Of a stretch of 64,000 nt of DNA, positions 6,079 to 58,248 are shown piece after piece. The notes below the pieces were generated by a model, which was not told the DNA's origin, made no database searches, and saw nothing but the letters and a program-made list of their open reading frames with translations. The position numbers and the translations under genes were made by a program. The DNA comes from Mucor racemosus (Eukaryota > Mucoromycota > Mucoromycetes > Mucorales > Mucoraceae), in the NCBI GenBank assembly GCA_027405735.1, contig JAPEHQ010000002.1, forward strand, positions 3,546,501-3,610,500. The letters run 5' to 3'. Positions within the stretch are counted from its first letter, which is position 1. Every line of letters starts with the position of its first letter.

Positions 6079-7482
6079 AACTGTAAAACTATTATAATAA
6101 AAATTTCTCGCTTTTCAAATTGACTTTTGCTATTGCTTAAATTATCTATCAATTTCATTAAACATTAAAAGTCGAGACCTGTCGCCAATTCAATTCTAAA
6201 ATAGCATTAATATGCATATATCCATCTCCCCTCCCCTCCCCCCAATTCAATTAAAAAGCAATTTGGTAAAAGTACATTACAATGGTTTTCAATGACCATG
6301 ACCATCAATTTCCAAGAATCTCTAGTATATATTTCAAATGATTGTGTAGTAAATCCACTTTTTTATTGCAATTTATCAGTGGTACTCGTATATAGCTCGC
6401 ATTTTCTAGATTTTGTACACGTGATTTCACCATAATTATAAAAAGATATATTGCCTCTCATCATTTACAAGTAGCTTATAAATCAGGAGTATATCTCTAA
6501 TGTCCTAAAACCAAAGTTATTGAAAGAATAATAATGGTCCGCGAAGTTTTAGGTCTAGCTGAGGGTGTTGCCTGTTATTAAATAATTTGAACATAATTCA
6601 AAATTTTGCTACATTAATCAGATAGAAATAGACGATTGATTAAAGGTCTACAATTTATCGGGATATCTTTTAATTTCATCAGAAATTTCAAAGCATCTGT
6701 ATTGATATATAGCTCGTTTGGTATAGGGTTAGCTGGGAAATAGAATGTTATTTTTAAACAATTCGCAAGTTCGGCTATATATTTCAGGAAGCAATATTTC
6801 AACGAAATAGCGTTCCTTTAATGGGCACTATACATGCGCAATCTTGAGTGCCATCCATCAACATGTCTTACTATTTATCAAAACTTATCGTTGCTTGACT
6901 ACACATCTAATTCAAGCAAAATTTCCCTTGAATCACATCGGTAACATGCAATCCTTGTTTAAGTGGTATGTGATTGTAGTTAATTCTATATAGATAACTT
7001 ACTTGCCTGCTTCCTAGTGCAACCTTTGAAAAAAGTATTGACCCCCCCCCCCAAAAAAAAAGGAAACTAAAGGTTCTGATTTAGGTTTATGGGTCACCAT
7101 ATGTTAAACCATCCCCCACCCATTTACATCAAACTTCAATATAATATATTGTAGAACATTCAAGAAGAAGCAAACTTTACGGTATGTATGGAAGCTTAAA
7201 TCAACATGAGATAACATTTTTAGACTGATTTTTAAGCGGGAAAACCAGTATCACTACTTTGGCATATTTATATATGTACTCAATGAATGTATATTTACCC
7301 ATAAATATAAAACAAAAAATGTATATGTACACAAACAATTTATTTATTAATAAAACAGTTGCTGCAACTATAGCACTCCATAAGCTTATTTGAGAAACGT
7401 TGAATTTAAACAATGTTAATCTTTTAATCGAAGCGTCTCACTTTTTCTAATAATTAGCCTCATGCTTACACCTTCTGGGATA
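6079..7482. other. intergenic, no gene seen
   Basis: AT-rich, with short spurious ORFs only. There are C-rich runs near 6230-6243 and a C11-A9 tract at about 7042-7061. It ends at the outer edge of the giant inverted repeat. Confidence 0.55.
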
Positions 7483-10400
7483 ACCTCGGACACTGTTAAA
7501 CATGCATAAGTTGGTCTCATTATGCTACCTATTTCTAAGTTTATTTATACCTCACGAAAAAACTCAAAAACATGTAAAATTTACTACTTTTTCCTTAAAA
7601 AACTGAGTCTCACTTTCCATCTCGGCTCAACTCAACTTTTTTTTCTCACTATATAATAACAAAAATAAAATAAGTGTCAATGTACCTGAGATGTTCAAGT
7701 TTAATCCAAAAATGAGTATCCGGAAATATCCTATTTTTTGCAGTTGATATAACTTTTTTAATGCTAATGTTTCAGTTTTTACGCGTAGTATTTCACTGCT
7801 AAAAATTAAAAACTTTGATGTTTCATATCTCTACAAAAAATTAAGCTATACTAAACCTTTCTAATAATAAAACTTACTTGTTTTGAAGTACTCTATAAAG
7901 TATTAAAGTATAAAAAAATTCTGAATACCTTTTTTTTAAAAAAACCTTTTTACGGCAGATTTCAAAATGTTCGATAAAGTGAGTAGCATTTTTTTTACAT
8001 TTATGTTATTGCCCTCGTTGATCTCTCTTGGATCCAATTTAGAGTTTTTCAAAATATTGAATTTTCGTGGAGATATCCTCAAAAATGTGTACAAAGGGAT
8101 ATCTTCGCTTCTTGCTTCAATTTTTCCCCTGTATACCCTCATCCCAAATTCTGAATTTGAAAAAAAAATTGACAAAAATCTCATTTTTTCTACTAAAAAT
8201 GCAGATAGAAGATTTAGCAATGGCTCAATCAATAGATAATTATTTTGAACATTATTTCTATTACTTATATTTAACATATGTTTATAGAAAATGTTGTGTA
8301 TCTTCAAAAAACCTCCAAAATTTTAATTGCATTTCACGTAAGATTTAATGCGAAAAATTTGTCTGAATTTTATTTTGATGGATGCAAAATTCGAAACTGT
8401 ACAAAAAACATTTAATACGCTAGTTTAACTAAAGTTGCAGTTCATGAACTATTAAACGATTTGTTTTTTGAATCATTTTTCGATCATTTTGATCAAATCA
8501 ATTTTAAAGCCCAGTTACCATAGGTTTAACCTGTAATGTAAACTATTATTTTGATTATCTCCACGAAAAATCAATATTTTTCGCTGAAATAAAAAATTTG
8601 GAGTAGCTTTCAGTTGGATCTATCTTGTGAACACAAAAAATTAAATTAACATCTTAATTTAAATTTTAAATTTCTACTGAAATGTCAAAAGAGCCCTTAT
8701 AAAAATAATCTTGCTAGAATATTACACTCTTTATTAACAATACATGCAGAGAATGTATTTATACATACTAATTGTAACTACTACTAGGGTTTTACTATCT
8801 AAAAGCATGATGTCAGTTAGAGAGGACACATGTAAATCAACGTGGACGCATGTTGATTTACTATCACACCAAATATGGACCGAGAGAAATGCACAAGATT
8901 TAGAATAAATGTTGTTGCAAGGAAAATGTATAATTTAATAAAGGAACTTGTTAAATTAAATCAAACAAAAAACCTGAAGAGAGTCTTTATGTAATGATTC
9001 ACATTACATGATGTTTCAACAATAATTGCATGAATTAGTTTCAGTTGTATAACTCATATAAATATGTAAATGTTGAATCAGATATTGAACATTAGTGAAA
9101 ATATCTGTTTCTTTTCTTTATTAATAATTTTAATCAAATAAACTTATTATCATAACCATAACCGATCTATTACTTAATACTACTTGTCAAATATTAATCA
9201 CACTTAATACATAGTAAGTATTGACCAAAGTAATAGTCAACTACAATTAGTAACACCAACAACGTCCACCTCTAGTACTTCTTTCTTAATAGACTCAATC
9301 TATTACAAGATGATAGTACTTATTACACTTTATTTAATATTAATAATTTGTTCTATTTATATACAAATTCTAAATTACATTTATCCATTAGATCAGTATT
9401 GTATCAATTATATCTTTCTGACATTCCATGTCGGATCAATCCATTTGCATTAGCAACGCAGCACATTTAAGATTTTAAGTTGAGCTTACTTTATATAGCT
9501 AAATCCAACAAGTAGATATGCCTCACTTATCCCGTTTCCTGGATCTTACTTTAGAACAATAAGAGAAATCAAAAATGTTACCACAGATTAGTTAGCTGAC
9601 TTCCTATCAATAAGGATTACAAAGCAAAAGCTTTATTATTATTATCATACAAATAACCGGAGAATACAACACCGAGATCTTGGATGTGCTACCGAAGATA
9701 TAATAATATTAATTACGGCCGAACTATGTTTCTCATGGGCATAGTGATATGCACAGATGGGCAGAATAAAATTTTTTATGCAGAACAGGCAGCCCAGATG
9801 AACAGAGTAATGAGATCAAGGTTTTTTAGTCAATTTACTAAAGTATATCAATCATAATATAATTAATAACGAAGATAATTTGAATGCTTTAAAGCAGATG
9901 TGAGTTACTCTGATTCAACAGAATTGCCTTATTGACGAGATATATCAATTTAAAATTTGGGGTTTGAAAGAGTTCTGACCATGTTCTTCTTTCGGAGACC
10001 AAATGGGAACAACAACAACAACTTGTTTGGCAACACTAAATGTATTTATGCATTTGTAAATTTCTGTTTGTAACGCACAAAATCGACTAATTTAGGATTA
10101 TTTTTCTTTCTTCTTCCCCACTTTCCTCAGCTTTTATTTATGTTTAAAACTACAATGAAAAGACCAATATTTTTTATAAACTGAAATCAAGTGCAAGTAC
10201 AAGCACATGTTTTTCTTATTGTTTATTTAGAAATAAATTATTAACTGTAAATTTTAGGGTGCGTTATAATATATTTCTCGAACAAAAAAAAAGCATACAA
10301 GACTTAGTTATTTTGTTCCATCATCTACATTATAATCGATGCTTTTTTGGTCTAAAGTCGATATCTGCCTTCAGAAAAAGTGGTGATTATAAAAGTATGT

Positions 10401-13141
10401 ATAGTATTGACTTAATTTGAATAAATAAATGAATAATAAACTCTTGTTCATTGATTTTACTAATAAATCAATTTTTATAGGTCAAAAGTAAAGGCGTATT
10501 CAGTTCAAAACGCTTGAAGCAATTCAATCATGCTAATTTACATGATTTATCATCTCTTGCTCATTCAATTGCTATCTTTGATTTCAATATTCAATTGATA
10601 CTGCTAATCGACTCGTTCGCCCTTTAGAGTTAACTCACCATCCTTGATTAGCGTATCTATAATAACGGTCTATTATTAGCTCATGGTATGCAAAATTATT
10701 AAAGCGGGTCGTCTAATCTCAAATTTATCTGATTCAACTGCTGATCCTAAACTAGCATCAAATTACTTGTGTTGACTCGCCATAAAGTAAGGCGTTTTAT
10801 AAAGTAGGATGTTGGCGTTCAATGTATTTCAGTTAATAAATTGAACATATAGAGATATGGTTCATTCAGAGATTTATGAATGTGTGAGAGGGCTCAGATC
10901 AATATGGGCACAAAAAATGGCCCAAACTGTGATGCTTCGTCAACCTGTACGAGAATTTTTTGTGGCGATACCTGGTGGCCCAAGTATAATGTAGGCATTT
11001 ATATGTCAAATGTATTGAATCAAGATAAAGTTGGTTGATTGATGTAACGCATAATAAATGGAATGCCATTTATTGAATATGTAAATGTAAATGTATAAAG
11101 CAAAGCTTACTTTCGAATGAAAGTACTACTACTAATTATTCTGATTAACATCGACAGGTTCAAAAAGCATAATAGTTAAATGCAATCATTGCTACTGTAC
11201 TAAATCGCATAATTTGATATGCAGAAAACTCTTGAAGCATTGATGCTTTTTTTTTTTTTTTGGCAATGCTACAAATCATCGTTCAATAAGACTGAACAAT
11301 AATGAATTAGAGAAAATACAACTGGTAAAAAACTGATATCTAACAATGTAAATCGAGGTCAAGATAGATAAAATGTGCATACATTGTGTAGTAGTGGAAA
11401 GCGCAACATTTTGATAGATAGAAATTACAGGACCAAGATGTTGTGTTTGCCTCAGGATTTTTAAAAGGGTTTAAAAACATACTTCGTCAAACTTAGATGC
11501 TGAATACGTATTATATACTATTAGCATTATCTTGTTTTTTATTTAATTACTGTATTATTAAAAATCAAGCTTTTCATAGCTTATAACAATGACAATGGGA
11601 TGTTTCTAATTTTAGGTTGACATTTATCATAAGGCGGGCTGATGATACGTTTCACGTTTGATACTATTGTAAATGGAACTAGCCAATTTAATTTATGGAA
11701 TTTGAATGCAAATACCCATGAACCATTTTTAAGTACTTAATAAGTTGGTTCTAACAAAGTACTGAATAAATTGGCTTAGGAAAAAGAGGGTAAAAAGGTG
11801 GCAAGAGGTTTCAGTGATGGCCATCATGTTTATGTTTATGGTTTATGATATTGAAGAGATAAGACTAAAACTTAATGTAAAATCGCCTCTAGCGCATTAA
11901 TTATCACGTACGGCTATATTATCATGAAATAAACTGCCACACAATATTAACATGTATAAATATTTACAGTAATAAGTTTCAATCAAGTGGGTACAGCACC
12001 TTAAATTCTTGAAAAAGTTCTCAAGTATTATGAAATCTCTTATTTTTAAGACTTACAAGGCTTATAAGCGGAATATTAATTAAAAAATCATTCTTGTCCA
12101 GATCATCAATTTTGACATTTTCTGAATTTTTTTTCTGATTTTGCAAATCTAGAGTTAATTATACTACCAATTGTAAAAACAAAAAATATACACATATGCA
12201 GAATTTGGCGCTCTATTTTTTCAATAAAAAACAACAAACATTTTCATTGTAAAATATTACATGAAAATCCTTTAACCAAAATTCCGTTTTTGGGGCAAAA
12301 GTACAAAGTTTCATTAATTAACATTTAATATTAAGCTTTTATAAAATATGTATTGACTATGGCTACAATTTTCTCTCACAATGTAGTACATTTAAACGTT
12401 GATTTTGGTATCAAAATTTGATTTTTCTGTTTTTTGATCAAAATCATGAGTGCTGGTAAGGATAAAATGAGCCCCGAAAATGTCCGCTACAAAAACTGAA
12501 TTTTCAAACCGTACGTGGTTAAATATAAGAAAATTAAAAAAAAAAACACATTTTTTTATTCAAAAATTAGATATACGATAGGATAAGAGATTTAGTCGTT
12601 CAACCTTGCTATGCTCAATTACAGCGTCGCTCTGTGGGCTCGCTTTTGCAACTTTTGTAACTTTTTAATGAATGTATGATATGACAGACGGTTTTTCTAG
12701 TAGAAAAATGTATATTTTTATGGTAACAGATATTCCCTCCTGCTTTGTTTAGTTTATGGTTCAGGCGCTATAATGCTGCTTTTACATTGGCTAAAATGTG
12801 CAATTTAGCAGCGTTTTAATTGCGCTAAAGTATGTAAAGCCTTGAAAATCCTTTAATACGTGTGTTGTTTCTCTCTTTTTGTTTTTATATTATTTCAAGG
12901 ATACTGTATATTCACCGTTTGATAAGGCATATCAGACTATCAAGTTGATGTTCTTTTCTTGTATCTGAATAAGCATGTTAACATAAGGGACTAATATTTT
13001 TAATATTGGTAGCAGCCTATATTAGAGACTGATATTATTTTCATTTAACCGCATTCTAAGATTAAATATCATTATTTACCACTGTATTGTTGGGCGTACT
13101 GTATTTCTTGGTTACCAGATTAAATTGAAGTCAATGATATT
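7483..13141 (+). repeat. left arm of giant inverted repeat (5,659 bp)
   Basis: Each base x in this arm pairs with base 28896-x of the right arm (15755-21413). The pairing sum is the same at the outer edge, at several internal checks and at the inner edge, so there is no net length difference. By eye only two differences were found, both near the outer end (positions 7501 and 7517). Similarity stops abruptly at 7483 (ACCTCGGACACTG...) and 13141. No credible protein gene is present; the small ORFs appear in both arms only because the arms are copies. The arm contains a nested 338-bp solo LTR (8990-9327) and segments also found, diverged, at 43-45 kb and 52.8-53.2 kb. Confidence 0.95.
8990..9327. 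mobile_element. solo LTR nested in left arm (copy of 19569-19906)
   Basis: This is the reverse-complement copy of the 338-bp LTR-like unit described at 19569-19906, present at the mirrored position in this arm with the same 5-bp flanking duplication. The element therefore inserted before the two arms became identical, or was copied by conversion. Confidence 0.75.
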
Positions 13142-15754
13142 GAAAGTTCAAAAAGTACTATCAACATCTGATTTTAATTTGGAATGCATCGTTTCTCATA
13201 TGCTTTATTTATTTATTTTTAGCTCAATTTGGTATATCTGGTCTTGTCTCTCTGGTTTGGTTTCTTTGATTTTACTTTAGGTACTATATTTCAAATTTCA
13301 TTCAGAAGTTAAAGCATTTTTTGTTATCTAATTTTTGATTTACCCTACACGGGTTTAAGAATCAAAATGATTTGATAAAAAAAAGCGATAACTTTTACCA
13401 CCTTTATTGGAATGGCATCTGTATTGATGCTTTCCCGATAAATTTGGTTACTATACTCAGTTGTTTGTCTTTGTACAATCGGTAATCCTGGGTCAATTTA
13501 ACCTGGTTGCTCTCCATTCGTGGACTTGCGACCTCTCCCCCTTTTAGGGTCTTGTAGTCTTCTTTCACGTTAACCGGCTAGAAACTATAGCCCTTTCTGG
13601 CAATCGGAGTCGTACTGTTTTCATGGCACCTGCTTGATTTCAGTATCACTTTATAGTATGGTGGTAAAAAAGCTATAAAGTCAAATGGCAACATGTAGAT
13701 AGACCTCCTCGTGGTGTTGCTGGAAACGTTCTTTTAAACGGCTAACTATCTACTCCAGTAAAACATGTATATTACAAGATACTTTTCCTTTATCTTAGAG
13801 TATTTCATTGCTTATGATTTCAATCCATAATTTTTTACTTTATCTGTTTTTTCTTCCATCCTTTATATTGTAGAATTAAAATTACAAGGCTGAAATTCAT
13901 TGTTTTATCAACTTATTTATTATTTCCTATTTCTTGTTCTTATATAAGGTATTGAATGATACAACTGAACACTTGTATAACCATTATTGCCAGTATTAAA
14001 AAACGTATACTGCATAAAATATAGATGTATTGATGATGCATTTTCTATAAACCCACAACATTTTAACAAAAGCAAAATTACGTAAATTTGCTTGATTTTT
14101 ATATATATACAAGAGAACTATTTACAAATAGTATATATATATATATATATATCCGAGAGCGTTTTAATGTTACGCCACGATATTATATCAATCTAAAAGC
14201 TAAAACTTGTACTAAATTATTTAATAAAAATAAAGGAAATCTGTTACAAAATGAAAGACCACATTAAAACTAGAGAACTTTATTATAAGGTCAAAACATC
14301 TTCTTTTATATTTACATTCTGTAACTATATGACTAGCCTAAAATGAGTCTATTTATATCTTATATATCCAATCAAGTATAGGTGACACACACCAGTTCCA
14401 CATTCCTCAATACTTAAAGTAATAAACTGAGCTTTATAACATAATACACAGCAATATATAATTTATCATTGCAATGAAATGACACCTTTTATAGACCAAA
14501 GTCGCCATTGTCATTTTAGAAAAATAACTGATCTCAATTCGTACCTGAATCTCGCTCCATAAGGACTGAGTTCCAATCAGATCCCAATAAGCATAACGAG
14601 GAAACTCTATATTGCTGGTGCCTGTAAAAGGAAGTATTCCTGATCAAAATACAACCTTCTACAACACGACACCTATGATATAAAGCTGTACTTATTTTGC
14701 ATTCATAATATATTCCAAAACTCCTGCTCATAAAATCGCAGTTGCAGTAATTCTAGATGAGGAATCACATCCCATAAAAATAAGCTCAGTTGCATTTTAA
14801 ATTATAACTGGAATGTTGAAAAGATCAACATCCATCTAATGATATTCTATCATATCAAACAAAGTATCAACATCTCAACCAAGTATCTTATAAAAGAATG
14901 CCAATAAAAGACATAATGATTGAACACCTGTAAAATAGGCATCAACACACAAACATCCACTATTTTACAATTCCTATAAATATAGCATACTTTATGAAGA
15001 TATCATTCTTTTTCTTCAGATTTCTTTTAATCACAATAAAACCGTGGAAAGACTATAATTGTATTTATCAACGCTTTTATTTTTTTATTTTATTTTCTTA
15101 TTTTATTTTTTATTTTTTATTTTTATAAAATTACTTCAATTTTATTGCAATCATTATCAATCTATGTCATAATCTTAACCAAGGAATATACACAGACTTG
15201 TGGATGCAAAAATCTAATTTTAACTTTGCCTTATATTTTTAGGTTTGAAAAATGACACTTAAAAAAAGAATACAATTAAAAAAAAATGAGTAATGAATCA
15301 GTTTTTTAACTGTACAATAAAAACAAGATATCGTTTATTTAGATATAAAAGTATGGCTTATTATATTAATTTGACATTGAGATCGTGAGATGTAATTTAA
15401 GACAATATTGAACCATTAGATCTGTTTGCACTACGGTCGACCTGTGCTGCACAAGATAGTTTCGTTGTGCCCAGATGGGCTGTATATTATAGCCTGAGCT
15501 GTTGCGCCCACTGAATATGGCTAAAAAGATAACACAATGCACATGGGCACAACAAAAGGAACTGCACACGAGCACAACGCTACTAACCCTGTACTGTATG
15601 TGCAGGATTATAGATTCTGTCCGTGGGCATAACATTAATCCCATGTGTGCATAATAGTAGAATTGCCCATAAGCATATCATTTGAAATTATATCACTTTT
15701 CTGGAATATTTCGTGGGTTCATAGCCAGTTCTAGCTTTTCATTGAGTAAATATA
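13142..15754. other. spacer (loop) of the giant inverted repeat
   Basis: 2,613 bp of unique, gene-free sequence between the arms. It contains a TA microsatellite at about 14129-14152, a T/A-rich low-complexity stretch at about 15065-15130, and a cluster of ATGGGCA-like motifs at 15465-15680. The 92-codon minus ORF at 15366-15644 overlaps that motif cluster and shows no recognisable domain. I see no rRNA or tRNA gene here. Confidence 0.7.
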
Positions 15755-18700
15755 AATATCATTGACTTCAATTTAATCTGGTAACCAAGAAATACAGTAC
15801 GCCCAACAATACAGTGGTAAATAATGATATTTAATCTTAGAATGCGGTTAAATGAAAATAATATCAGTCTCTAATATAGGCTGCTACCAATATTAAAAAT
15901 ATTAGTCCCTTATGTTAACATGCTTATTCAGATACAAGAAAAGAACATCAACTTGATAGTCTGATATGCCTTATCAAACGGTGAATATACAGTATCCTTG
16001 AAATAATATAAAAACAAAAAGAGAGAAACAACACACGTATTAAAGGATTTTCAAGGCTTTACATACTTTAGCGCAATTAAAACGCTGCTAAATTGCACAT
16101 TTTAGCCAATGTAAAAGCAGCATTATAGCGCCTGAACCATAAACTAAACAAAGCAGGAGGGAATATCTGTTACCATAAAAATATACATTTTTCTACTAGA
16201 AAAACCGTCTGTCATATCATACATTCATTAAAAAGTTACAAAAGTTGCAAAAGCGAGCCCACAGAGCGACGCTGTAATTGAGCATAGCAAGGTTGAACGA
16301 CTAAATCTCTTATCCTATCGTATATCTAATTTTTGAATAAAAAAATGTGTTTTTTTTTTTAATTTTCTTATATTTAACCACGTACGGTTTGAAAATTCAG
16401 TTTTTGTAGCGGACATTTTCGGGGCTCATTTTATCCTTACCAGCACTCATGATTTTGATCAAAAAACAGAAAAATCAAATTTTGATACCAAAATCAACGT
16501 TTAAATGTACTACATTGTGAGAGAAAATTGTAGCCATAGTCAATACATATTTTATAAAAGCTTAATATTAAATGTTAATTAATGAAACTTTGTACTTTTG
16601 CCCCAAAAACGGAATTTTGGTTAAAGGATTTTCATGTAATATTTTACAATGAAAATGTTTGTTGTTTTTTATTGAAAAAATAGAGCGCCAAATTCTGCAT
16701 ATGTGTATATTTTTTGTTTTTACAATTGGTAGTATAATTAACTCTAGATTTGCAAAATCAGAAAAAAAATTCAGAAAATGTCAAAATTGATGATCTGGAC
16801 AAGAATGATTTTTTAATTAATATTCCGCTTATAAGCCTTGTAAGTCTTAAAAATAAGAGATTTCATAATACTTGAGAACTTTTTCAAGAATTTAAGGTGC
16901 TGTACCCACTTGATTGAAACTTATTACTGTAAATATTTATACATGTTAATATTGTGTGGCAGTTTATTTCATGATAATATAGCCGTACGTGATAATTAAT
17001 GCGCTAGAGGCGATTTTACATTAAGTTTTAGTCTTATCTCTTCAATATCATAAACCATAAACATAAACATGATGGCCATCACTGAAACCTCTTGCCACCT
17101 TTTTACCCTCTTTTTCCTAAGCCAATTTATTCAGTACTTTGTTAGAACCAACTTATTAAGTACTTAAAAATGGTTCATGGGTATTTGCATTCAAATTCCA
17201 TAAATTAAATTGGCTAGTTCCATTTACAATAGTATCAAACGTGAAACGTATCATCAGCCCGCCTTATGATAAATGTCAACCTAAAATTAGAAACATCCCA
17301 TTGTCATTGTTATAAGCTATGAAAAGCTTGATTTTTAATAATACAGTAATTAAATAAAAAACAAGATAATGCTAATAGTATATAATACGTATTCAGCATC
17401 TAAGTTTGACGAAGTATGTTTTTAAACCCTTTTAAAAATCCTGAGGCAAACACAACATCTTGGTCCTGTAATTTCTATCTATCAAAATGTTGCGCTTTCC
17501 ACTACTACACAATGTATGCACATTTTATCTATCTTGACCTCGATTTACATTGTTAGATATCAGTTTTTTACCAGTTGTATTTTCTCTAATTCATTATTGT
17601 TCAGTCTTATTGAACGATGATTTGTAGCATTGCCAAAAAAAAAAAAAAAGCATCAATGCTTCAAGAGTTTTCTGCATATCAAATTATGCGATTTAGTACA
17701 GTAGCAATGATTGCATTTAACTATTATGCTTTTTGAACCTGTCGATGTTAATCAGAATAATTAGTAGTAGTACTTTCATTCGAAAGTAAGCTTTGCTTTA
17801 TACATTTACATTTACATATTCAATAAATGGCATTCCATTTATTATGCGTTACATCAATCAACCAACTTTATCTTGATTCAATACATTTGACATATAAATG
17901 CCTACATTATACTTGGGCCACCAGGTATCGCCACAAAAAATTCTCGTACAGGTTGACGAAGCATCACAGTTTGGGCCATTTTTTGTGCCCATATTGATCT
18001 GAGCCCTCTCACACATTCATAAATCTCTGAATGAACCATATCTCTATATGTTCAATTTATTAACTGAAATACATTGAACGCCAACATCCTACTTTATAAA
18101 ACGCCTTACTTTATGGCGAGTCAACACAAGTAATTTGATGCTAGTTTAGGATCAGCAGTTGAATCAGATAAATTTGAGATTAGACGACCCGCTTTAATAA
18201 TTTTGCATACCATGAGCTAATAATAGACCGTTATTATAGATACGCTAATCAAGGATGGTGAGTTAACTCTAAAGGGCGAACGAGTCGATTAGCAGTATCA
18301 ATTGAATATTGAAATCAAAGATAGCAATTGAATGAGCAAGAGATGATAAATCATGTAAATTAGCATGATTGAATTGCTTCAAGCGTTTTGAACTGAATAC
18401 GCCTTTACTTTTGACCTATAAAAATTGATTTATTAGTAAAATCAATGAACAAGAGTTTATTATTCATTTATTTATTCAAATTAAGTCAATACTATACATA
18501 CTTTTATAATCACCACTTTTTCTGAAGGCAGATATCGACTTTAGACCAAAAAAGCATCGATTATAATGTAGATGATGGAACAAAATAACTAAGTCTTGTA
18601 TGCTTTTTTTTTGTTCGAGAAATATATTATAACGCACCCTAAAATTTACAGTTAATAATTTATTTCTAAATAAACAATAAGAAAAACATGTGCTTGTACT

Positions 18701-21413
18701 TGCACTTGATTTCAGTTTATAAAAAATATTGGTCTTTTCATTGTAGTTTTAAACATAAATAAAAGCTGAGGAAAGTGGGGAAGAAGAAAGAAAAATAATC
18801 CTAAATTAGTCGATTTTGTGCGTTACAAACAGAAATTTACAAATGCATAAATACATTTAGTGTTGCCAAACAAGTTGTTGTTGTTGTTCCCATTTGGTCT
18901 CCGAAAGAAGAACATGGTCAGAACTCTTTCAAACCCCAAATTTTAAATTGATATATCTCGTCAATAAGGCAATTCTGTTGAATCAGAGTAACTCACATCT
19001 GCTTTAAAGCATTCAAATTATCTTCGTTATTAATTATATTATGATTGATATACTTTAGTAAATTGACTAAAAAACCTTGATCTCATTACTCTGTTCATCT
19101 GGGCTGCCTGTTCTGCATAAAAAATTTTATTCTGCCCATCTGTGCATATCACTATGCCCATGAGAAACATAGTTCGGCCGTAATTAATATTATTATATCT
19201 TCGGTAGCACATCCAAGATCTCGGTGTTGTATTCTCCGGTTATTTGTATGATAATAATAATAAAGCTTTTGCTTTGTAATCCTTATTGATAGGAAGTCAG
19301 CTAACTAATCTGTGGTAACATTTTTGATTTCTCTTATTGTTCTAAAGTAAGATCCAGGAAACGGGATAAGTGAGGCATATCTACTTGTTGGATTTAGCTA
19401 TATAAAGTAAGCTCAACTTAAAATCTTAAATGTGCTGCGTTGCTAATGCAAATGGATTGATCCGACATGGAATGTCAGAAAGATATAATTGATACAATAC
19501 TGATCTAATGGATAAATGTAATTTAGAATTTGTATATAAATAGAACAAATTATTAATATTAAATAAAGTGTAATAAGTACTATCATCTTGTAATAGATTG
19601 AGTCTATTAAGAAAGAAGTACTAGAGGTGGACGTTGTTGGTGTTACTAATTGTAGTTGACTATTACTTTGGTCAATACTTACTATGTATTAAGTGTGATT
19701 AATATTTGACAAGTAGTATTAAGTAATAGATCGGTTATGGTTATGATAATAAGTTTATTTGATTAAAATTATTAATAAAGAAAAGAAACAGATATTTTCA
19801 CTAATGTTCAATATCTGATTCAACATTTACATATTTATATGAGTTATACAACTGAAACTAATTCATGCAATTATTGTTGAAACATCATGTAATGTGAATC
19901 ATTACATAAAGACTCTCTTCAGGTTTTTTGTTTGATTTAATTTAACAAGTTCCTTTATTAAATTATACATTTTCCTTGCAACAACATTTATTCTAAATCT
20001 TGTGCATTTCTCTCGGTCCATATTTGGTGTGATAGTAAATCAACATGCGTCCACGTTGATTTACATGTGTCCTCTCTAACTGACATCATGCTTTTAGATA
20101 GTAAAACCCTAGTAGTAGTTACAATTAGTATGTATAAATACATTCTCTGCATGTATTGTTAATAAAGAGTGTAATATTCTAGCAAGATTATTTTTATAAG
20201 GGCTCTTTTGACATTTCAGTAGAAATTTAAAATTTAAATTAAGATGTTAATTTAATTTTTTGTGTTCACAAGATAGATCCAACTGAAAGCTACTCCAAAT
20301 TTTTTATTTCAGCGAAAAATATTGATTTTTCGTGGAGATAATCAAAATAATAGTTTACATTACAGGTTAAACCTATGGTAACTGGGCTTTAAAATTGATT
20401 TGATCAAAATGATCGAAAAATGATTCAAAAAACAAATCGTTTAATAGTTCATGAACTGCAACTTTAGTTAAACTAGCGTATTAAATGTTTTTTGTACAGT
20501 TTCGAATTTTGCATCCATCAAAATAAAATTCAGACAAATTTTTCGCATTAAATCTTACGTGAAATGCAATTAAAATTTTGGAGGTTTTTTGAAGATACAC
20601 AACATTTTCTATAAACATATGTTAAATATAAGTAATAGAAATAATGTTCAAAATAATTATCTATTGATTGAGCCATTGCTAAATCTTCTATCTGCATTTT
20701 TAGTAGAAAAAATGAGATTTTTGTCAATTTTTTTTTCAAATTCAGAATTTGGGATGAGGGTATACAGGGGAAAAATTGAAGCAAGAAGCGAAGATATCCC
20801 TTTGTACACATTTTTGAGGATATCTCCACGAAAATTCAATATTTTGAAAAACTCTAAATTGGATCCAAGAGAGATCAACGAGGGCAATAACATAAATGTA
20901 AAAAAAATGCTACTCACTTTATCGAACATTTTGAAATCTGCCGTAAAAAGGTTTTTTTAAAAAAAAGGTATTCAGAATTTTTTTATACTTTAATACTTTA
21001 TAGAGTACTTCAAAACAAGTAAGTTTTATTATTAGAAAGGTTTAGTATAGCTTAATTTTTTGTAGAGATATGAAACATCAAAGTTTTTAATTTTTAGCAG
21101 TGAAATACTACGCGTAAAAACTGAAACATTAGCATTAAAAAAGTTATATCAACTGCAAAAAATAGGATATTTCCGGATACTCATTTTTGGATTAAACTTG
21201 AACATCTCAGGTACATTGACACTTATTTTATTTTTGTTATTATATAGTGAGAAAAAAAAGTTGAGTTGAGCCGAGATGGAAAGTGAGACTCAGTTTTTTA
21301 AGGAAAAAGTAGTAAATTTTACATGTTTTTGAGTTTTTTCGTGAGGTATAAATAAACTTAGAAATAGGTAGCATAATGCGACCAACTTATGCATATTTAA
21401 CAGTGTCCGAGGT
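15755..21413 (-). repeat. right arm of giant inverted repeat (5,659 bp)
   Basis: Near-perfect reverse complement of 7483-13141. The inner edge is at 15755, where CAGATTAAATTG pairing ends, and the outer edge is at 21413 (...GTGTCCGAGGT). The bases directly outside both ends are ATA (7480-7482 and 21414-21416), a possible 3-bp target duplication that could also be chance. Only 383 bp separate this edge from the HIT-family gene. Confidence 0.95.
19569..19906. mobile_element. solo LTR, 338 bp, 5-bp TSD TAAAG
   Basis: The unit begins TGTAATAAGT and ends GAATCATTACA, a TG...CA end pair with a longer TGTAAT/ATTACA inverted terminus. It is flanked by TAAAG on both sides (19564-19568 and 19907-19911). 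A diverged copy of the surrounding sequence at about 52770-53205 runs straight across this point (near 53095) without the 338 bp, so it preserves the empty site. This fits a solo LTR left by recombination. No internal coding part is present. Confidence 0.82.
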
Positions 21414-21796
21414 ATAACCTAAAAAGCGCATCGTGTGAGTTTAGCTATAAAAAACATGACATGCTTCGATTTCTAAGATCGAAAACTGAAGATTATATTC
21501 CTCGACCTCAAGTCAATATGTGATTTCCAAAAACTCAATTAGGATGTTTGTATTTGAAGATGACTATATTTAACTGCATAATTACGGAATATGCATTTGT
21601 GGAGAATATATTTGCATTAATGTATACTACTACACACATGTATATTTTTTTATCGTTGAGCATACTGCTGTAGTTATGGAGTGCCACCTTTTGGACTGAC
21701 ATTTGCAAGAATTAAAGTGACTTCATCTATGATTAAATAAGTTTCATTCATGGATTAAATTGACAGAAGATTTCACACACTCAAACAAAATAAATA
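21414..21796. other. intergenic between giant repeat and HIT gene
   Basis: 383 bp of AT-rich sequence with no ORF; it must contain the promoter of the HIT-family gene. Confidence 0.6.
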
Positions 21797-41753: not shown

Positions 41754-42805
41754 TTGTTTTTTATGAGAGAGAAAAGAGATAAAGGGTGTTTAGTTAGTTT
41801 AAGAACAAAAGATAAAGTTGAGAAAGAGAGAAAGAGAATGATTCGGCGTTTCAACGCAACATGATAATAGTGGGGTTTGTTGGCGGTGTAATAGTGAGCA
41901 TGGTTTGATAATTGTTGCTGCAATCATTGAACGGGTAATAGTATTTACAATTAACTGACTCCTTAAAAAAGTTGTTTTATAGTAGCCTTAGATATTCATG
42001 TACATTGTCATCATTTCTTTAAACTCATGATTCTATAGCATGCTCAATTATAGATTATTTTTTATTATCTAAATCCTTTTATTTGTTTTTCTTTTTTTTT
42101 TTTTTTTTTTTTTTGTTTCCTTTTCACAGAAGAAATCTGGTGTAACTCATATTGTTGTTTCACAAAATCGATGTTATGTTTTCTAGTCGTTTTGCGAGAA
42201 CTGCATTTATTTGAAAACAAATCAGGGGCTTTTATGTGCTAATGAAATACAAAAGCTTGATTTTCTGCATCATAACTGCTGTAAACTCATCAAATGCAAA
42301 TCAAATAAACTGCATTTATTTTTTCTTTGAGTAATTGCGCTACAGATTGCTCCATAAAAAGCCAATATTATATCAAGAATTTTATTGCTTTCTATTGCTA
42401 CAATATCCCTAATAAATGTTATATACTTGAATATATTGCAAACGCTGTCGCTAGATCAAAATTTCGTCATATTATAAACTGATTTTGTATGAATACGCGA
42501 ATACATAATCATTGTCATAGATTATCCAAACTATGAAAGCGGATATATGATGTGCAAGGTAAAAAATTGCTGCATACTTGTTCTTGGGTTATGAAGAAAA
42601 TTAGAGATAAATTAAAGTGATGATGTGCATAGTAGATCATTTATTGACTTCCCTACATTTAAAAAAAAAAGTACATAACTTGTTGAAATAAACACAAGCA
42701 TCATATTCCCAAAATTTATGCGAATAATTTATCAACAAGCTTGGTTATTTTTGGTGTTGCGCAGTTGTATCGAACTTAATTCTTGATAAAATTCTTCAAT
42801 ACTAC
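41754..42805. other. intergenic upstream of PKC1
   Basis: PKC1 promoter side. There is a 23-base T-run at 42092-42114, and the rest is AT-rich with no ORF of note. It ends at the left 272-bp LTR. Confidence 0.5.
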
Positions 42806-43077
42806 TGTAATGAGTCAAACATTTCAGTTTCATTTATGCAAAACCTTGCCTCATTCCTTATATAAATACTACAAGGAAAGCATTACATGATCCCTTGTAG
42901 ATTTATCTGTCTTGTTACACTCCCTTTACTTTTATTTATTCACCAATAAACATCTAAATTACAAATAAGAACACCAACCTTTATCAATCCAATGATCACC
43001 AATTTATAATAACAAGAATAATACCTATAAGCATACTATCCACCTTTGTTGTTAGTCCAAAATTACAGATCATTACA
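42806..43077 (+). mobile_element. LTR, 272 bp (left of an inverted pair)
   Basis: Begins TGTAATGAGTCAAACATTTC and ends CAGATCATTACA. It contains TATATAAATACT and later CACCAATAAACATC, plausible TATA and poly(A) signals for plus orientation. It is nearly identical, in reverse complement, to 44662-44933. Flanks (ACTAC / GGAAT) do not match, so one side was rearranged after insertion or it inserted by another route. Confidence 0.75.
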
Positions 43078-44220
43078 GGAATATGAAAACAAAAAGAGAG
43101 AAAGAACACACGTAGAAAAGGGTTTTCAAGGCTTTACATTATTTAGCGCATTTAAAGCCCTGCTAAATTGCACATTTCAGCTAATGTAAAAGCAGCATTA
43201 CTGCGCACGAAACATAAACTAAACAAAATATACAAATCTATTACCATAGAAACATACATTTTTCTACCAGAAAAACCGTCTGTCATATCATATATTCATT
43301 AAAAAATTGCAAAAGCGAGCCCTTAGAACGACGCCGTAATTTAGCATAGCAAGATCAAACGGCTGCTAAATCTCTTATACTATGGTATAAAGTTTTAAAT
43401 AAAAATGCGTTTTTTTTTTTTACTTTTTTTATATTTAACCACGTACGGTCTGAAAATTCAGTTTTTGTAGCGGACGTTTTTGGGGACTCATTTTATCCTT
43501 ACCAACACTCATGATTTTGATCAAAAAACAGAAAAATCAAATTTTGATACCAAAATCAACGTTTAAATATACTACATTGTGAGAGAAAATTGTAGCCATA
43601 GCTAATACACATTTTATAAAAGCTTAATATTAAATGTTAAGTAATAAAAATTTGTACTTTTGTCCAAAAAACGGATTTTTGATTAAAGGATTTTCATACA
43701 ATATTTTATAATAAAAAGGTTTGTTATTTTTTATTGAAAAAATAGAGCGCTAAATTCTTTATTTGTGTATATTTTTTGTTTTTATAATTGGTAGTATAAT
43801 TAACTCTAGATTTGCAAAATCAGAAAAAAAAATTCAGAAAATGTCAAAATTGATGATCTGGACAAGAATAATTTTTGAAATTAATATTCCGCTTATAAGC
43901 CTTGTAGGTCTTAAAAATAAGAGATTTTATAATATTTGAGAACTTTTTCAAGAATTTACGATGTTGTACCCACTTAATTCAATGTTATTGCTGAAAATCT
44001 TTATACAAGTTAATATTATGTAGTAGTTTATTTGATGATAATATAGCCTTACTTTATCATCATTGCGTTGGAGGTGATTTACTGTACATTTAGTTTTAGT
44101 ATTATCTCCCCAATATCATAAGCATAAACATGGCCATCACCGGAACCTATTGCCGCCTTTTTACCCTCTTTGTCCCAAGCCAACTTGTTCAATGATTCAA
44201 TCCTTTACCAGAACCAAATA
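43078..44220 (+). repeat. diverged copy of giant-repeat arm segment
   Basis: Collinear with about 16003-17155 of the right arm (plus orientation) at roughly 85-90% identity by eye. Shared blocks include AACAAAAAGAGAGAAA, TTTTTCTACYAGAAAAACCG, ACCACGTACGGT, TGATTTTGATCAAAAAACAG and AAAATGTCAAAATTGATGAT. No ORF is present in either copy. It is a dispersed repeat much older than the two arms are from each other. Confidence 0.82.
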
Positions 44221-44514
44221 TTATATCCATACACATTTATCAATTATTAATAATAATTTGTATTGTTACATCTAATGGACCCCATCCATTAGAAGATTTT
44301 ATCGCACAATCCCAATAATTATAAACCCATATTTAATTCATCCTAATAAACGGTACTTTTTACGTTGATTTTAATTTACGAAGTTGCAATAAATCTTTTT
44401 TAAGCTTTTTTTATAAAAATTACCCCTTTTTACTGCAGACCCTGTTATATTGTATTTATGGTAATTGAATCTGTTGTTCTTTTGGTATGTGTTTCAAAAT
44501 AGAATTGAAGCGTC

Positions 44515-44975
44515 GTCAAAAAAATCTTTATGAATAATCTTGCCAGAGTATTACACTTTATAAGCAATACATCCAAAGGATGTATTTAAACACATTAATT
44601 GTAACTATTACTAGAATTTTACTACTACTTTCTAGGAATAGATAATGCAAATCAATGATCGTGTAATGATCTGTAATTTTGGACTAACAACAAAGGTGGA
44701 TAGTATGCTTATAGGTATTATTCTTGTTATTATAAATTGGTGATCATTGGATTGATGAAGGTTGGTGTTCTTATTTGTAATTTAGATATTTATTGGTGAA
44801 TAAATAAAAGTAAAGGGAGTGTAACAAGACAGATAAATCTACAAGGGATCATGTAATGCTTTCCTTGTAGTATTTATATAAGGAACGAGGCAAGGTTTTG
44901 CATCAATGAAACTGAAATGTTTGACTCATTACAGATCGGCGTTGATTTACTATAGCATCAATTATAGACTGAGGC
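44515..44975 (+). repeat. second diverged arm segment, interrupted by an LTR
   Basis: 44515-44661 and 44934-44975 together match about 8690-8870 of the left arm in plus orientation (AATAATCTTGC.AGA.TATTACACT, ACTAATTGTAACTA.TACTAG, GTTGATTTACTAT), interrupted by the 272-bp LTR. Relative to 43078-44220 the order and strand are rearranged compared with the intact arm. Confidence 0.65.
44662..44933 (-). mobile_element. solo LTR, 272 bp, 5-bp TSD GATCG
   Basis: Reverse complement of the 42806-43077 LTR, differing at only a few sites. It is flanked by a perfect 5-bp duplication GATCG (44657-44661 and 44934-44938). That makes it an independent solo LTR rather than one end of a foldback element. 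A 134-bp fragment of the same family lies at 54794-54927. Confidence 0.85.
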
Positions 44976-45302: not shown

Positions 45303-45456
45303 TGTCGTGTGCTGAGATATATGTTTTACAGTAGATTCAAATAAATGTATACAAAAGATTATATATGAGATAAAAGATAATCTTTATTATTATTATATGT
45401 TTTGATATTTTATACTAATTAAAAAGGTTACACACAAAGTCTGTGTGTACCTGACA
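45303..45456 (-). repeat. 3' LTR of Gypsy element
   Basis: 154 bp, TGTCGTGTG...CCTGACA in plus orientation. It differs from the other LTR at one position (AAAGATAATC here, AAAGATGATC there). Confidence 0.92.
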
Positions 45457-45493
45457 TTACCTTCCTCCCAAAAAAAAGTACAGGTAAAAAAAA

Positions 45494-48400
45494 TTATTTT
45501 GCTCTAGCAATACGAGGAATATACCAAGATTTATCCGGTTTTGCACCATCATAATAAACCGAATGTAAACGATCAGTGTGGACCCAGGAATTGTAAGTCT
45601 TTCCTTCGATTTCTTGAATTTGATAAATGTTGTAATCAAGGTTTGTTTTTAAGACCACATATGGACCCATCCAATTAAACTCAAGGCCTTTTTTTGATTC
45701 ATGCCTTAACATCACATAATCGCCTACATTAAATACTTGTGTCTTGTCATTTTTTAATGAAGCATCCCATCTTGCTTTATCTTGCCGAGCTTGTATAATC
45801 ATTTTCTCCTTGGCTTCAAATCTCTTTTCTCGAAGATCGCGCATTCTAGCAAGCACATCTTCCGCTACTAATTCCGGATCCTCTTCAGTCAATGGATCCA
45901 TAAAAGGACGACGAGAATCTCCAGGAAGGACTGGATCTTGACCATAGACTAAATAGAAAGGACTATAACCAGTGGTTGCATGCTTTCTAATGCGACAAGA
46001 GAACAAAGCAGAATCAATATATTCATCCCAACTATGAACTTGCCCTTTGACATATTTTGTGAGCATATGTTTGAACGTTTGGTTCAGTCTTTCACACTTT
46101 GAATTAGTTCTAGGGTGAAATGCTGAGGTAAACATGTGCTTTGATCGAATCTTATGCATATACTGTTTCAAAATTTTGCTCAAAAAATTGGCACCACGGT
46201 CAGAAACCAATTCAATAGGGCAACCAAATTTCATCACAATTTCTTCATATAAAAACTTGACAATTTCATCAGCAGAAGCAGAATTGAGAGCACGAGCAAT
46301 TGGCCAATTTGTACTGTAATCAACAGCCATAATAATCCATCGATTACCATTGATAGTCTTGGGTAATTCCCCAATAAAGTCAATGTGCCACCGAGCAAAA
46401 GGAGCAGGCACCTCTAAAGGTTTCATTGGAGCATGGTGAGTTTTCTTTTCATTACGAGAATGTAATTGACATTCAGGACAAGTTTTAAGCCAATAGTTAA
46501 TATCTTTTTTCATGCTAGGCCACCAAACCCGTTGCTTCATCAAAGGATAAATTGTCAATTGACCAGAATGACCAAAACCACGATGGAAATCTTCAATTAA
46601 GTCCGCACGGCGAGCAAAAGAGATGAATTTCAACCGAGAGGCTGCTTTAGGATTCGATGGATTAGGATTTAAACGCCAAACAACATTATCAACCACTTCA
46701 AAATTTGCTTCCTCCTTTTCCAATTGAGCACGCCATTTATCCGGCCAGTCTTCCTTCTGTTTCTTAAAAAATATAGGCCACTCTTGACAAGGATCAGTCA
46801 ACAAAGAAGTATCCACCGGTTGTAATACCTTATTCAATATCGTAGTAGATATTTCATTCAAGAATTCAGGTTCCATGGATAGTACATCAGGCTCACAATC
46901 AGGCCCCTCTCTACGACTTAGCAGATCCGGAATGATGTTATCAACACCCTTTTTGTATACCAAGGTAGGCTGGTACATTTCCAAATCTTGCATCCACCGT
47001 ACCAAACGAGGAGATACCTTATTGGAAGAATTGTAGAACTGCAACGGTCTATGATCCGTATATACTTCAAAAGGAGATCCTTCCACAAAACAACGCCATG
47101 TTTTACAAGCAAATAAAACAGCCAACAATTCACGCTCCTGAGTAGGATAGTTACGTTCAGCACTAGAAAGTTTCTTCGATATAAATGCTACAGGTTTCCA
47201 ATCATCATTATAATTAGGGTCTTGTTGTAATAAAACAGCACCAACAGCATAATCACTAGCATCATATTCAATACGAAAAGGCTTTGACATATCTGGCATT
47301 ATCAATACAGGCGAAGAAGATATTAATGATTTAATTGAATCAAAAGCTTGTTGACAAGCTTCTGACCAAACAATCTTTCGATTCTTCGGACCAACGCCTT
47401 TTGTTAAATCAGTAATAACAGCCGCCACATCAGCAAAACTGGGCATATACGTAGAATAATATTGACACAGACCCATAAATTTACGCACATCTTGAACTGT
47501 TTGAGGCACAGGCCACGACGTAATAGCTTCCACCTTTTGTTTAGATGGTTTTGTACCCTTACCAGCAACAATATCATGCCCTAAAAAGGTAATTTCCTTA
47601 CGATTGAACTTGCACTTTGCTCTAGAAACTACCAAGCCCGCATCTTCTAGTTTCTTGAATACCATGTGTAAATGCTTCTTGTGCAAATTAATATCATCAC
47701 CTTTAGTATATATCAGACAGTCATCAATATAACAGATCACAAAGTCATCAATATACTCCTTTAACACATCGTTCATTAAAAACATCCACCTGGAACCAGA
47801 GTTTTTCAAGCCCATGGCCATAACAGACCAAGAAAATTGCCCATACCTGGTATTTATAGCACTCTTAAGAGAATCTGAAGATGACAATCTTTGTTGCCAA
47901 AAACTACTCGTAAGATCGATGGAACTCATGTAAGTAACTCCATGCAATTGTTCTAAGCATTCATCAATCCTAGGTAAAGGAACTCGCTGTGCAATAGTTT
48001 TAGCATTTAAAGCCCTATAATCACAAACCATTCTGAGAGAACCATTTGGTTTCTTTACAAACAATACTGGACTACCCCATTCCGACACACAAGGCTCAAT
48101 AAAACCTTTACTCAATAGTTCATCAAGTTGTTTCCTTAATTCCTTTAATTCTAAAGGAGACATCCGATATGGAGCTCTTGAAATAGGTTTTGTTCCCGGT
48201 TCCAGTTCAATCATATTACCATCAGTTGGTCTAATTGGAGGCAATGTATCTAAAGAACCTTTGAATACCTCTGGATACGCTTGAGCAAATTCATTACACC
48301 AATCTTCATTTTCTTTTTCTTGAGTAGATAGATTTGTATCAGAATGATTGACATTAGTTAAATCAAGTATATTATGTAATTCCTTAGATGAGACCAAAAA

Positions 48401-50166
48401 GCATTCTTCCACTTGATTCTTCTTTAATAATTTTTCAAATTGTCTAGCTGTTATAACAAAATTGCAATCATCACATTCATCAATACCCTCTGCGCCCACA
48501 GTACCTTCAGATTTTTCATTTTCATGAATAATATCCTTATTACCCTCAGATTCTACATCTTCCTGCACCGCAACAACATTCCCCATCTGTAACTCCTTTT
48601 GAATTGGTTGAATAATGGCAGTAGTACCATCATAAAGCTTAATGGACCAAGAGCTGTGGAACCAATCAGGTTTAGGTTGAACTTGACGACGCAACCATGC
48701 ATTACCCAAAATCAAATCAAACTTGGTATCAAACACATAAGCTTCCATACCTTCTTGATATTCACCCATTTTTAAAGTAAAAGTAGCAATAGACGAAATT
48801 TTTGATTGTTGTCCATTAGCAGTTTCAACAGCCTGGCCCTTAATATTTCTCAATTGTGTAACAAACGAGACGAATTTAGGATTTATGTAATTAGCCGATG
48901 CTCCAGAATCAATTAATACAGAACAAACTCGACCATTTATCATAGCTTTATATAAAGGTAACCGAATTTGAGTTTCTCCTGCAGTTAAGATAAAATCAAC
49001 ATCCTGTTGTAGTAAGTTATCATTAATTATCAAAGGTTCGACATAGGAAGCTGAATCAGGCAAAACACAGTACAAGTAAGAGGATGAATTAAATTCTTTA
49101 TTTTCAACATTAGGTTCAGAATAATAATTGTCTTCATAATGATAATCTTCTTGATAATTTAGTTGGTGTCTAGCTGAAGCACAGTCTCTTTGAATATGCC
49201 CATAACCACCACAACAATGGCATTGGACCCCCGAGCGAGCGTTTCCATTAGCATTACCACCACCAGCACCACGACGAAAACTCCCTCGAGATCCACCACG
49301 AAAATCACCACGATAACCACCACGATAACCACCACGAGGTCCCCCACGAGAATCACCGCGAAAACCTCCACGAAAACCACCACGACCACGAAAACCACTA
49401 CGATATCCACCTTGATATCCATTATCCCCAGATCCATTAAATGAACGAAGCATTTGATATAGCTCACGGGTCTCTGCAACGGATAAATCCATTGGATCAT
49501 CCAATTGGTGAGTAGCACCACCCGAATTATAGACTTGAGATGGCCGATTCATTGGAATGGCATCCAAACGATTTCCTTCATAAATGTGGGCTGATCGAAT
49601 AGCCTCACTGAGCAATGGGTTTTCCATATCAATATAATCTTTAATATGCACCCTAGCATGATGGTCTTTAAGGCCAGCTAAAAACTTATCAACTGCTTCC
49701 TCATCCGTCATCCTGGGAATGTTCAGTTTGATCGTCATAAAGTCTTGCACGTATTGTGCAATAGTGCCCGATTGTCTTAGGTTACGAATGCGATCTCTCG
49801 CCACCGAGATCGAATTTTCAGGCTTGAAGAAAGCACGCAGTTCAGCCTTAAATTCTACCCAGTCTTGAGGTGCCTTAGATAACATTCGTAAATTTTGATG
49901 CCATATTTGAGCAGCACCTGAAAGTAATGTAACACCTAATTTCGTTTTTTTGACGCCGTCAAAATCCTTCAAGTCTCCATAGTCATCAATAGAATTAATC
50001 CATGATTCAATAGCATGAGGATCTCTAGAACCATTGTATTTTTTAGGTTTCTCCAAGAAATCTAAACTATCATCTTTCTTCTTGGCAGCTGCCGAAATGG
50101 ATACAACTTCCTTCATTAATTCAGCGATTTTAAGCATGTCATTATTGGTGATAGATTGTTGAGACA

Positions 50167-50224
<58 letters not shown>

Positions 50225-50467
50225 GGTGTTGTCTGTTGTTATATTATATAAAAAATATTTATTTAAAAATGTTGTTGCTAACTTGTTCCAATAAATCTCT
50301 CTCTTGTTTGTTGATTTAAGCCTTTCTTCTTGTGTAAATGTATTTGATTTAGTCTTTCTTAATGTATTAAAATAATTGATATCTTCTTGATCTTTCAATG
50401 CTTCAAGAACTCTTTCTTCTATTTCGAATTGGTTCTTTAATTTTTCTATATCACTTGAATTATCCAT
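45494..50467 (-). CDS. Gag-Pol polyprotein of Ty3/Gypsy element
   Basis: Single 1657-codon frame with no frameshift or stop between gag and pol. Domains in order, residue positions approximate: N-terminal segment; poly-Asn run (about 81-100); gag (about 150-290); RGG/GF-rich region (350-410); CCHC zinc knuckle (CHCCGGYGHIQRDC, near 416); aspartic protease (LIDSGASANYI, near 519); reverse transcriptase (catalytic YIDD near 913); RNase H (DASDYAVGAVLL near 1068, TDHRPLQF); integrase with HHCC finger (near 1292), DDE residues in HIDFIG, SDRGANF and ERLNQ (near 1360, 1422, 1459), and a GPY/F module (MGPYVVLK). No chromodomain is visible. A second possible start (MSQQS) follows the poly-Asn run. 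It encodes the element's own replication machinery. Confidence 0.95.
50167..50226 (+). repeat. (GTT)n microsatellite inside gag
   Basis: About 20 GTT units on the plus strand, read as a poly-Asn tract in Gag-Pol. Length is in whole codons, so the frame is kept. It is a likely site of copy-to-copy length variation. Confidence 0.85.
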
Positions 50468-50525
50468 TCACTAGTTCAATGGTTTTATATTTATATAATG
50501 ATCAAATGGTTCTGATGCTACCAAA

Positions 50526-50679
50526 TGTCGTGTGCTGAGATATATGTTTTACAGTAGATTCAAATAAATGTATACAAAAGATTATATATGAGATAAAAGA
50601 TGATCTTTATTATTATTATATGTTTTGATATTTTATACTAATTAAAAAGGTTACACACAAAGTCTGTGTGTACCTGACA
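50526..50679 (-). repeat. 5' LTR of Gypsy element
   Basis: 154 bp, carrying the element promoter for minus-strand transcription. It is near-identical to 45303-45456. Confidence 0.92.
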
Positions 50680-50788
50680 CATTTAAAAGAAGAAAAAAAA
50701 AGGAGAGTTGCTGTTCGATTTGCAACAATATCCATGCCAGACATAAAACACACTACATACACTGCTTTCGTAAAGCAGAGCAAAAAAG

Positions 50789-50859
50789 GGCTTCTCCGGG
50801 AATCGAACCCGGGACCTCTCGCACCCTAAGCGAGAATTATACCACTAAACCAAGAAACC
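50789..50859 (-). tRNA. tRNA-Pro (anticodon AGG)
   Basis: 71 nt. The acceptor stem GGTTTCT pairs with AGAAGCC (one G-T). The anticodon stem CTCGC/GCGAG encloses loop TTAGGGT, giving anticodon AGG. The T-arm CCGGG-TTCGATT-CCCGG is perfect. A box TGGTTTAGTGG and B box GGTTCGATTCC are present. A T6 Pol III terminator follows the 3' end (plus-strand A-run 50782-50787). No intron. Confidence 0.95.
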
Positions 50860-57822: not shown

Positions 57823-58248
57823 TGGAATAACAAATCGAAAAAGAAAAAAAGAAGAAGGATAAATAGAAATGTAATAATTGTTGGCTTATACACATACATA
57901 TTTAAGGTATTACTAAAAGACATTTAGCCACACTGTTTGGTGTAACTTGAATTCAATTGAGATGTACGAAATTTCCAGTGCAAAAATACATCAATTTATA
58001 AGCAAACAGACATAAAAATGAGCACACAATCACATCTTATATTTGCTTCCTTTCGTAGTACATCTTTGCATCTATCAAAACTTGATTTAGTATTTTGAGC
58101 TTTCCATAAACTTCCTCTCTTCTTTTGCTTCTTTGAGTAACATCATGCGGCGCTTCAAGTAAAAGCAGTAGAATAAAGAGTGCGAAACACCTAAAGAAAT
58201 GGATTTCCAATTTTTTTCTTTTTGATTATACACAAACATTTACAAAAA
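57823..58248. promoter_or_regulatory. shared divergent promoter of the HSPA12-like pair
   Basis: 426 bp between the two divergent ATGs. I did not find a clear heat-shock-element array (repeated nGAAn) here. Regulation is unknown, but a shared control region is likely from the arrangement. Confidence 0.5.

Follow-up and report, generated by a model that had tools for sequence, protein, structure and literature searches.

A 5.66-kb inverted repeat of Mucor racemosus with arms probably made identical by gene conversion

The window analyzed here, a stretch of 64,000 nucleotides (C2:3546501-3610500) within the 53.2-Mb, 54-contig genome of Mucor racemosus, contains a large inverted repeat located between a Coq4 gene on its left (2.4-3.0 kb, identified with Pfam) and, on its right, a 266-aa frame at 22.6 kb that has no Pfam match and is followed by further long frames. 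The Rfam matches of the window, a tRNA and two snoRNAs, all lie outside this repeat. Its arms (Table 1), 5,659 bp each and surrounding a spacer of 2,613 bp (13142-15754), align without gaps and with two mismatches, C vs T at 7501/21395 and T vs G at 7517/21379 (arm 1/arm 2), both in the outermost 35 bp. The 5,624 bp inward of these mismatches are free of any difference, and a chance origin of this identity is excluded. The initial annotation had described a near-perfect inverted repeat of 5.66 kb with a 2.6-kb spacer, no net indel, and no recognizable genes in its arms, and all of this is confirmed. Stop-to-stop frames reach at most 128 aa in the arm and 103 aa in the spacer, and the 128-aa arm frame, the sole frame of the arms or spacer put to Pfam, gave no match at E 0.1.

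Table 1 Features of the inverted repeat and its borders in the window.
Feature	Position	Strand	Basis
Arm 1, likely recipient; ends in a 4-bp microhomology join with repeat X	7483..13141	+	2 mismatches, 0 gaps vs arm 2
Arm 2, likely donor; inner end continuous with native family sequence	15755..21413	-	38/38 other scored places cross 15754/15755
Left flank: diverged remnant of the arm repeat, outer side	7426..7482	+	38/59 columns identical to the right flank
Right flank: diverged remnant of the arm repeat, outer side	21414..21471	-	90 bp beat 200/200 shuffles in 11/11 family comparisons
TATT common to arm 1 and repeat X, inner join	13138..13141	+	X matches elsewhere begin there
Repeat X in the spacer, with younger insert M at about 14470-15149	13142..15428	+	X and M identities to other copies
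Native inner family sequence, on the arm 2 side only	15429..15754	-	Query 75-328 and 321-400 match other copies
MITE B in arm 1	8990..9327	+	Ends TGTAATGA..TTATTACA, 5-bp duplication CTTTA
MITE B, mirrored site of arm 2, same CTTTA duplication	19569..19906	-	Mirrored-site comparison

A search of the genome showed that both arms are members of an abundant repeat family. The outer 718 bp of the arm returned 2,993 first-look candidates, of which the best 40 were scored, the non-self ones being 80-82% alike, and the inner arm is 83-86% like other copies in the main rows of its best 40 scored matches. The spacer is itself composed of other repeats: in the other copies scored, the first part of repeat X is 84-88% alike, against 95-96% for insert M. 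The fetched loci carry the same modules in mixed order, with host-gene-like frames between the repeat blocks, and the spacers of seven palindromes have no common core, just scattered pieces that recur among them. MITE B (338 bp) is bordered by perfect 5-bp duplications at 3/3 loci examined (the window, C3, and C1). As the window copy is 95% like that of C3, this element is probably younger than the family of the arms, and it was most probably carried along when the arm was copied; its duplication is identical in both arms.

A second, smaller inverted pair is found in the window at 42805-44934, where 276-bp arms with five mismatches flank an arm-related piece (43080-44191, 86.7%); no duplication was seen outside this pair. 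At C11, the sequence upstream of repeat X (L034:675-1788) contains internal diverged repeats that are 66-88% alike elsewhere and 100% alike between the C11 arms. A shared autonomous element between the outward-facing A modules was considered and dropped, as the intervening 13-17 kb at C1, C3, and C7 consist, by eye, of host-gene-like frames with little in common; one 1,444-aa frame in C7 resembles, also by eye, a non-LTR retrotransposon. Repeat-induced point mutation was likewise set aside, since the arm has a TpA/ApT of 0.89 and two further stretches of the window have 0.82 each, which is no clear sign of it.

We then compared the sequences on either side of the arm ends. Many of the copies aligned at arm position 1 share sequence further outward, and diverged family sequence was observed past the outer edge on both sides of the window repeat. 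The 90 bp of the left flank beat all 200 shuffles in seven of 11 comparisons with other copies and failed to do so in four, so the homology of this flank to the family is weak, while the same length of the right flank did so in every comparison (Table 1). The flanks also resemble each other (64% identity), with a local score of 35, where 100 shuffles gave at most 30. Since family sequence lies on either side, there were probably two arms before the present ones became identical, and the drop from complete identity to 64% within homologous sequence resembles the edge of a gene-conversion tract. By the same alignments, ACCTCGGACACTG is not a transposon end, as family sequence runs on in both flanks. 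The initial annotation had spoken of an outer terminus, at 7483/21413, which this outward continuation of the repeat on both sides contradicts; the genome search that it proposed, with the arm and the outer terminus, did recover many relatives of the arm but no common terminus. Neither the defined termini nor the target-site duplication of a foldback or long-terminal-inverted-repeat element was found at the arm ends, family homology continuing outside position 1, and ATA, a candidate target-site duplication at 7483/21413, was abandoned once both flanks were recognized as family sequence.

The inner junctions were examined in the same manner. All 38 other places scored for the 15754/15755 junction run through it (best 40 of 3,639 candidates scored), which means that arm 2 is joined to its native neighbor. 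Conversely, none of the 39 non-self rows at 13141/13142 spans the junction (best 40 of 2,022 candidates scored): 33 begin at 13138-13143 in repeat X, and the other six are arm sequence. Repeat X extends further upstream in C11 and C1c, indicating that it is truncated in the window, and the inner edge of the window repeat is a non-homologous join with 4 bp of microhomology (TATT). At arm position 35, the G of arm 2 is the base found in 15/19 other copies and the T of arm 1 in 0/19, position 19 being uninformative (T in five and C in three of eight copies). Mainly because only arm 2 has a native inner junction, and also because of the family base at position 35, arm 2 is likely the template and arm 1 the recipient.

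Exact tracts, from 576 to 3,992 bp, were present in eight further inverted pairs. The arms are nearly identical at C2 (4.1 kb, seven mismatches), C6 (2.3 kb, five), C11 (3.0 kb, one), and C1c (3.4 kb, three), and the mismatches of C2, C6, and C1c lie all or mostly at the tract ends; the alignments of C11, C1c, and C18 extend to the end of the fetched stretch. The C18 arms show 3.0 kb with no mismatch and then 5-12 mismatches per 100 columns, the C7b arms about 1.9 kb with two mismatches flanked by stretches of 10-15 per 100, and the arms of one C1 pair, with an overall identity of 89.9%, an exact tract of 649 bp flanked by stretches of 1-18 per 100. The C3 arm pair is a mosaic. The sharp loss of identity inside homologous sequence seen at the outer edge of the window repeat is thus also found at both edges in C7b and C1 and at the inner edge in C18, where the tracts end within homologous arms (3-18 mismatches per 100 columns). 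A fresh duplication does not readily account for tracts that begin and end within diverged but homologous arms.

No such drop was found at the inner edge of the window repeat, nor past the outer edges of C2, C6, C7b, and C3, where the sequence beyond the aligned arms showed no homology in comparison with shuffles, the window alone being positive among the five testable loci. Beyond the inner edge, shuffles were beaten only at C11, of eight loci. The absence of homology past these edges means that the tract of several palindromes takes up the whole of the available homology, a result that a duplication would give likewise.

Arms of the same locus are 99.68-99.96% alike (the window, C2, C6, C11, and C1c). 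Between loci, the median over 796 matches is 83.7%. The arms are also more alike than any other copy scored: 100% in the window vs 82% for the next best scored copy, and 100% in C18 vs 89% for other copies. The C11 arm matches its own copies at 100% and its best-scoring other place at 69% over the full query, shorter pieces reaching up to 88%. Homogenization is not universal among close inverted pairs, as the C1 7512/9981 pair, 1 kb apart, is 90.3% alike with a longest exact run of 86.

To compare orientations, exact runs were collected over 331 kb from 47 inverted and 30 direct same-locus pairs and from the 796 between-locus matches of at least 300 bp. The longest run was 258 bp in the direct pairs and 205 bp between loci, and the top seven inverted pairs reached 5,624, 3,992, 3,230, 3,040, 2,189, 1,983, and 1,263 bp, six of these seven loci having been fetched because their hits looked paired. 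In one set of five regions (38 inverted and 28 direct pairs), the longest run was 649 bp for inverted and 258 bp for direct pairs, so long tracts are not everywhere. Among pairs within 20 kb, 22/27 are inverted (two-sided binomial 0.0015; six lists of 38 non-self hits each, best 40). Equal bit scores were found in 9/22 of these inverted pairs vs 0/5 of the direct ones, in best-40 lists that favor equal-scoring pairs and with one direct pair (C24) counted twice. Deletion may also remove identical repeats that lie in direct orientation. A retrotransposon was tried as an orientation control and dropped, 17 rows being too few.

Taken with a probability of roughly three in four, our preferred explanation is that the window contains an old inverted repeat pair without coding capacity, whose arms were recently made identical by gene conversion, with arm 2 as the likely template. 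The initial annotation had offered that such arms are recent, homogenized by gene conversion, or selected, and the tract edges and the between-locus divergence favor homogenization. We infer the following course, including its initiating lesion, its direction, and its repair pathway. Arm 1 would have suffered a break or a stalled fork and then invaded the matching arm 2 inside the shared outer repeat sequence near 7483-7518, and copying would have proceeded inward through arm 2 until it ended at the homology limit, where arm 1 meets repeat X at the TATT match. Owing to the inverted arrangement of the arm family, such conversion probably recurs at sites throughout the genome.

The initial annotation had listed a foldback transposon, an inverted duplication, and an assembly error as candidate origins; the first fails at its terminus, and the second survives as a one-step event, which we consider unlikely. 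In that event, a template switch during fork or break-induced replication would have copied arm 2 leftward where no full arm 1 existed before, using the outer repeat similarity at one end and the TATT microhomology at the other. The inner join of the window, with its 4 bp of microhomology and no homology past it, would fit such a switch, as would an inner end that is native in arm 2 and not in arm 1, the C6 outer edge that is non-homologous on one side, and the lack of detectable homology past the outer edge at C2, C7b, and C3. However, family sequence goes on in register past the arm in the left flank of the window, and the edges inside diverged homologous arms, both in C7b and C1 and one in C18, argue against a single duplication. 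That an assembly or polishing error overwrote one arm with the sequence of the other would fit the known assembly risk of long identical inverted repeats, but it looks most improbable because exact tracts adjoin clearly diverged arm sequence, which the assembly kept apart, at C18, C7b, and C1; moreover, the window flanks differ outside the arms, and tract lengths and edges vary from locus to locus. Least credible is the recent insertion of a foldback or long-terminal-inverted-repeat transposon ending in ACCTCGGACACTG, since, despite the two arms, the spacer, the many relatives, and the ATA directly outside each end, family homology extends past the supposed end, on either side of the window repeat as well as in other copies, no common terminus was found, no long frame exists in arm or spacer, and module orders and palindrome ends differ among the other copies.

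Foldback and long-terminal-inverted-repeat transposons are characterized by long inverted arms and a variable middle; unlike these elements, the repeats examined here showed neither defined ends nor duplications nor a common arm length. Plastid repeats are, besides sex-chromosome palindromes, the other well-known site of arm-to-arm conversion. Arm-to-arm conversion is best known from the sex-chromosome palindromes, and in the human Y palindrome P6, the arms are >99.9% alike around a non-duplicated spacer and maintained by conversion, with inferred minimum tracts of up to 9,023 bp and a mean of 2,068 (PMC3723533). The window repeat shares the near-identical arms and the non-duplicated spacer with P6, but its arms belong to an old repeat family that is dispersed through a fungal genome and have no recognizable genes. 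In Candida tropicalis, inverted repeats of 2-5 kb surround the core at the seven centromeres, with a reported average homology of 92% between chromosomes (PMC4741521). Both fungi have inverted repeats more alike within a locus than across loci, but the loci are many here and their median identity is 83.7%. In Saccharomyces, template switching is reported to homogenize short inverted repeats of about 10-20 bp, the arms becoming identical (PMC8604942). One arm serving as template for the other is common to both cases, whereas the exact tracts here measure 0.6-5.6 kb.

No report of dispersed many-locus arm conversion in Mucoromycota was found in the titles and abstract beginnings of the open-licence papers listed. 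Arm-to-arm conversion itself is already known, and within that literature the new part would be its dispersed many-locus setting in this fungal group. More broadly, hundreds of dispersed intergenic inverted repeats in a fungal nucleus might be continually rewritten over kilobases by arm-to-arm conversion, outside sex chromosomes and centromeres, each locus remaining a private palindrome while the surrounding family decays; we put this forward tentatively, and with more doubt than confidence. If it is true at many intergenic fungal repeats, one genome would supply many natural replicates in which tract length, tract edges, and the effect of distance could be measured. It would also be a warning that near-identical inverted arms are not necessarily young insertions.

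Finally, other features were identified in the window. A nearly intact Ty3/gypsy-type retrotransposon (45303-50679) has 154-bp LTRs with one mismatch and a single frame of 1,657 aa that matches gag, protease, RT, RNase H, and integrase; it ends 109 bp from a tRNA gene (50788-50859), and a 1,200-bp piece of it has three other copies that are 99% alike and one that is 95% alike. Two diverged Hsp70-like genes, named by eye, lie in inverted orientation at 56056-60027 and are 72% alike over 248 bp. Matches to the C/D-box snoRNAs Afu_300 and snR75, both fungal families, were found close together at 63300-63666. These matches are in keeping with a Mucoromycota fungus, as is a frame resembling protein kinase C: of its 82 matches, the closest of which are 98% alike, the named ones come from Rhizopus, Endogone, Mucor, Jimgerdemannia, and Gigaspora and, in one case, from the ascomycete Zarea.
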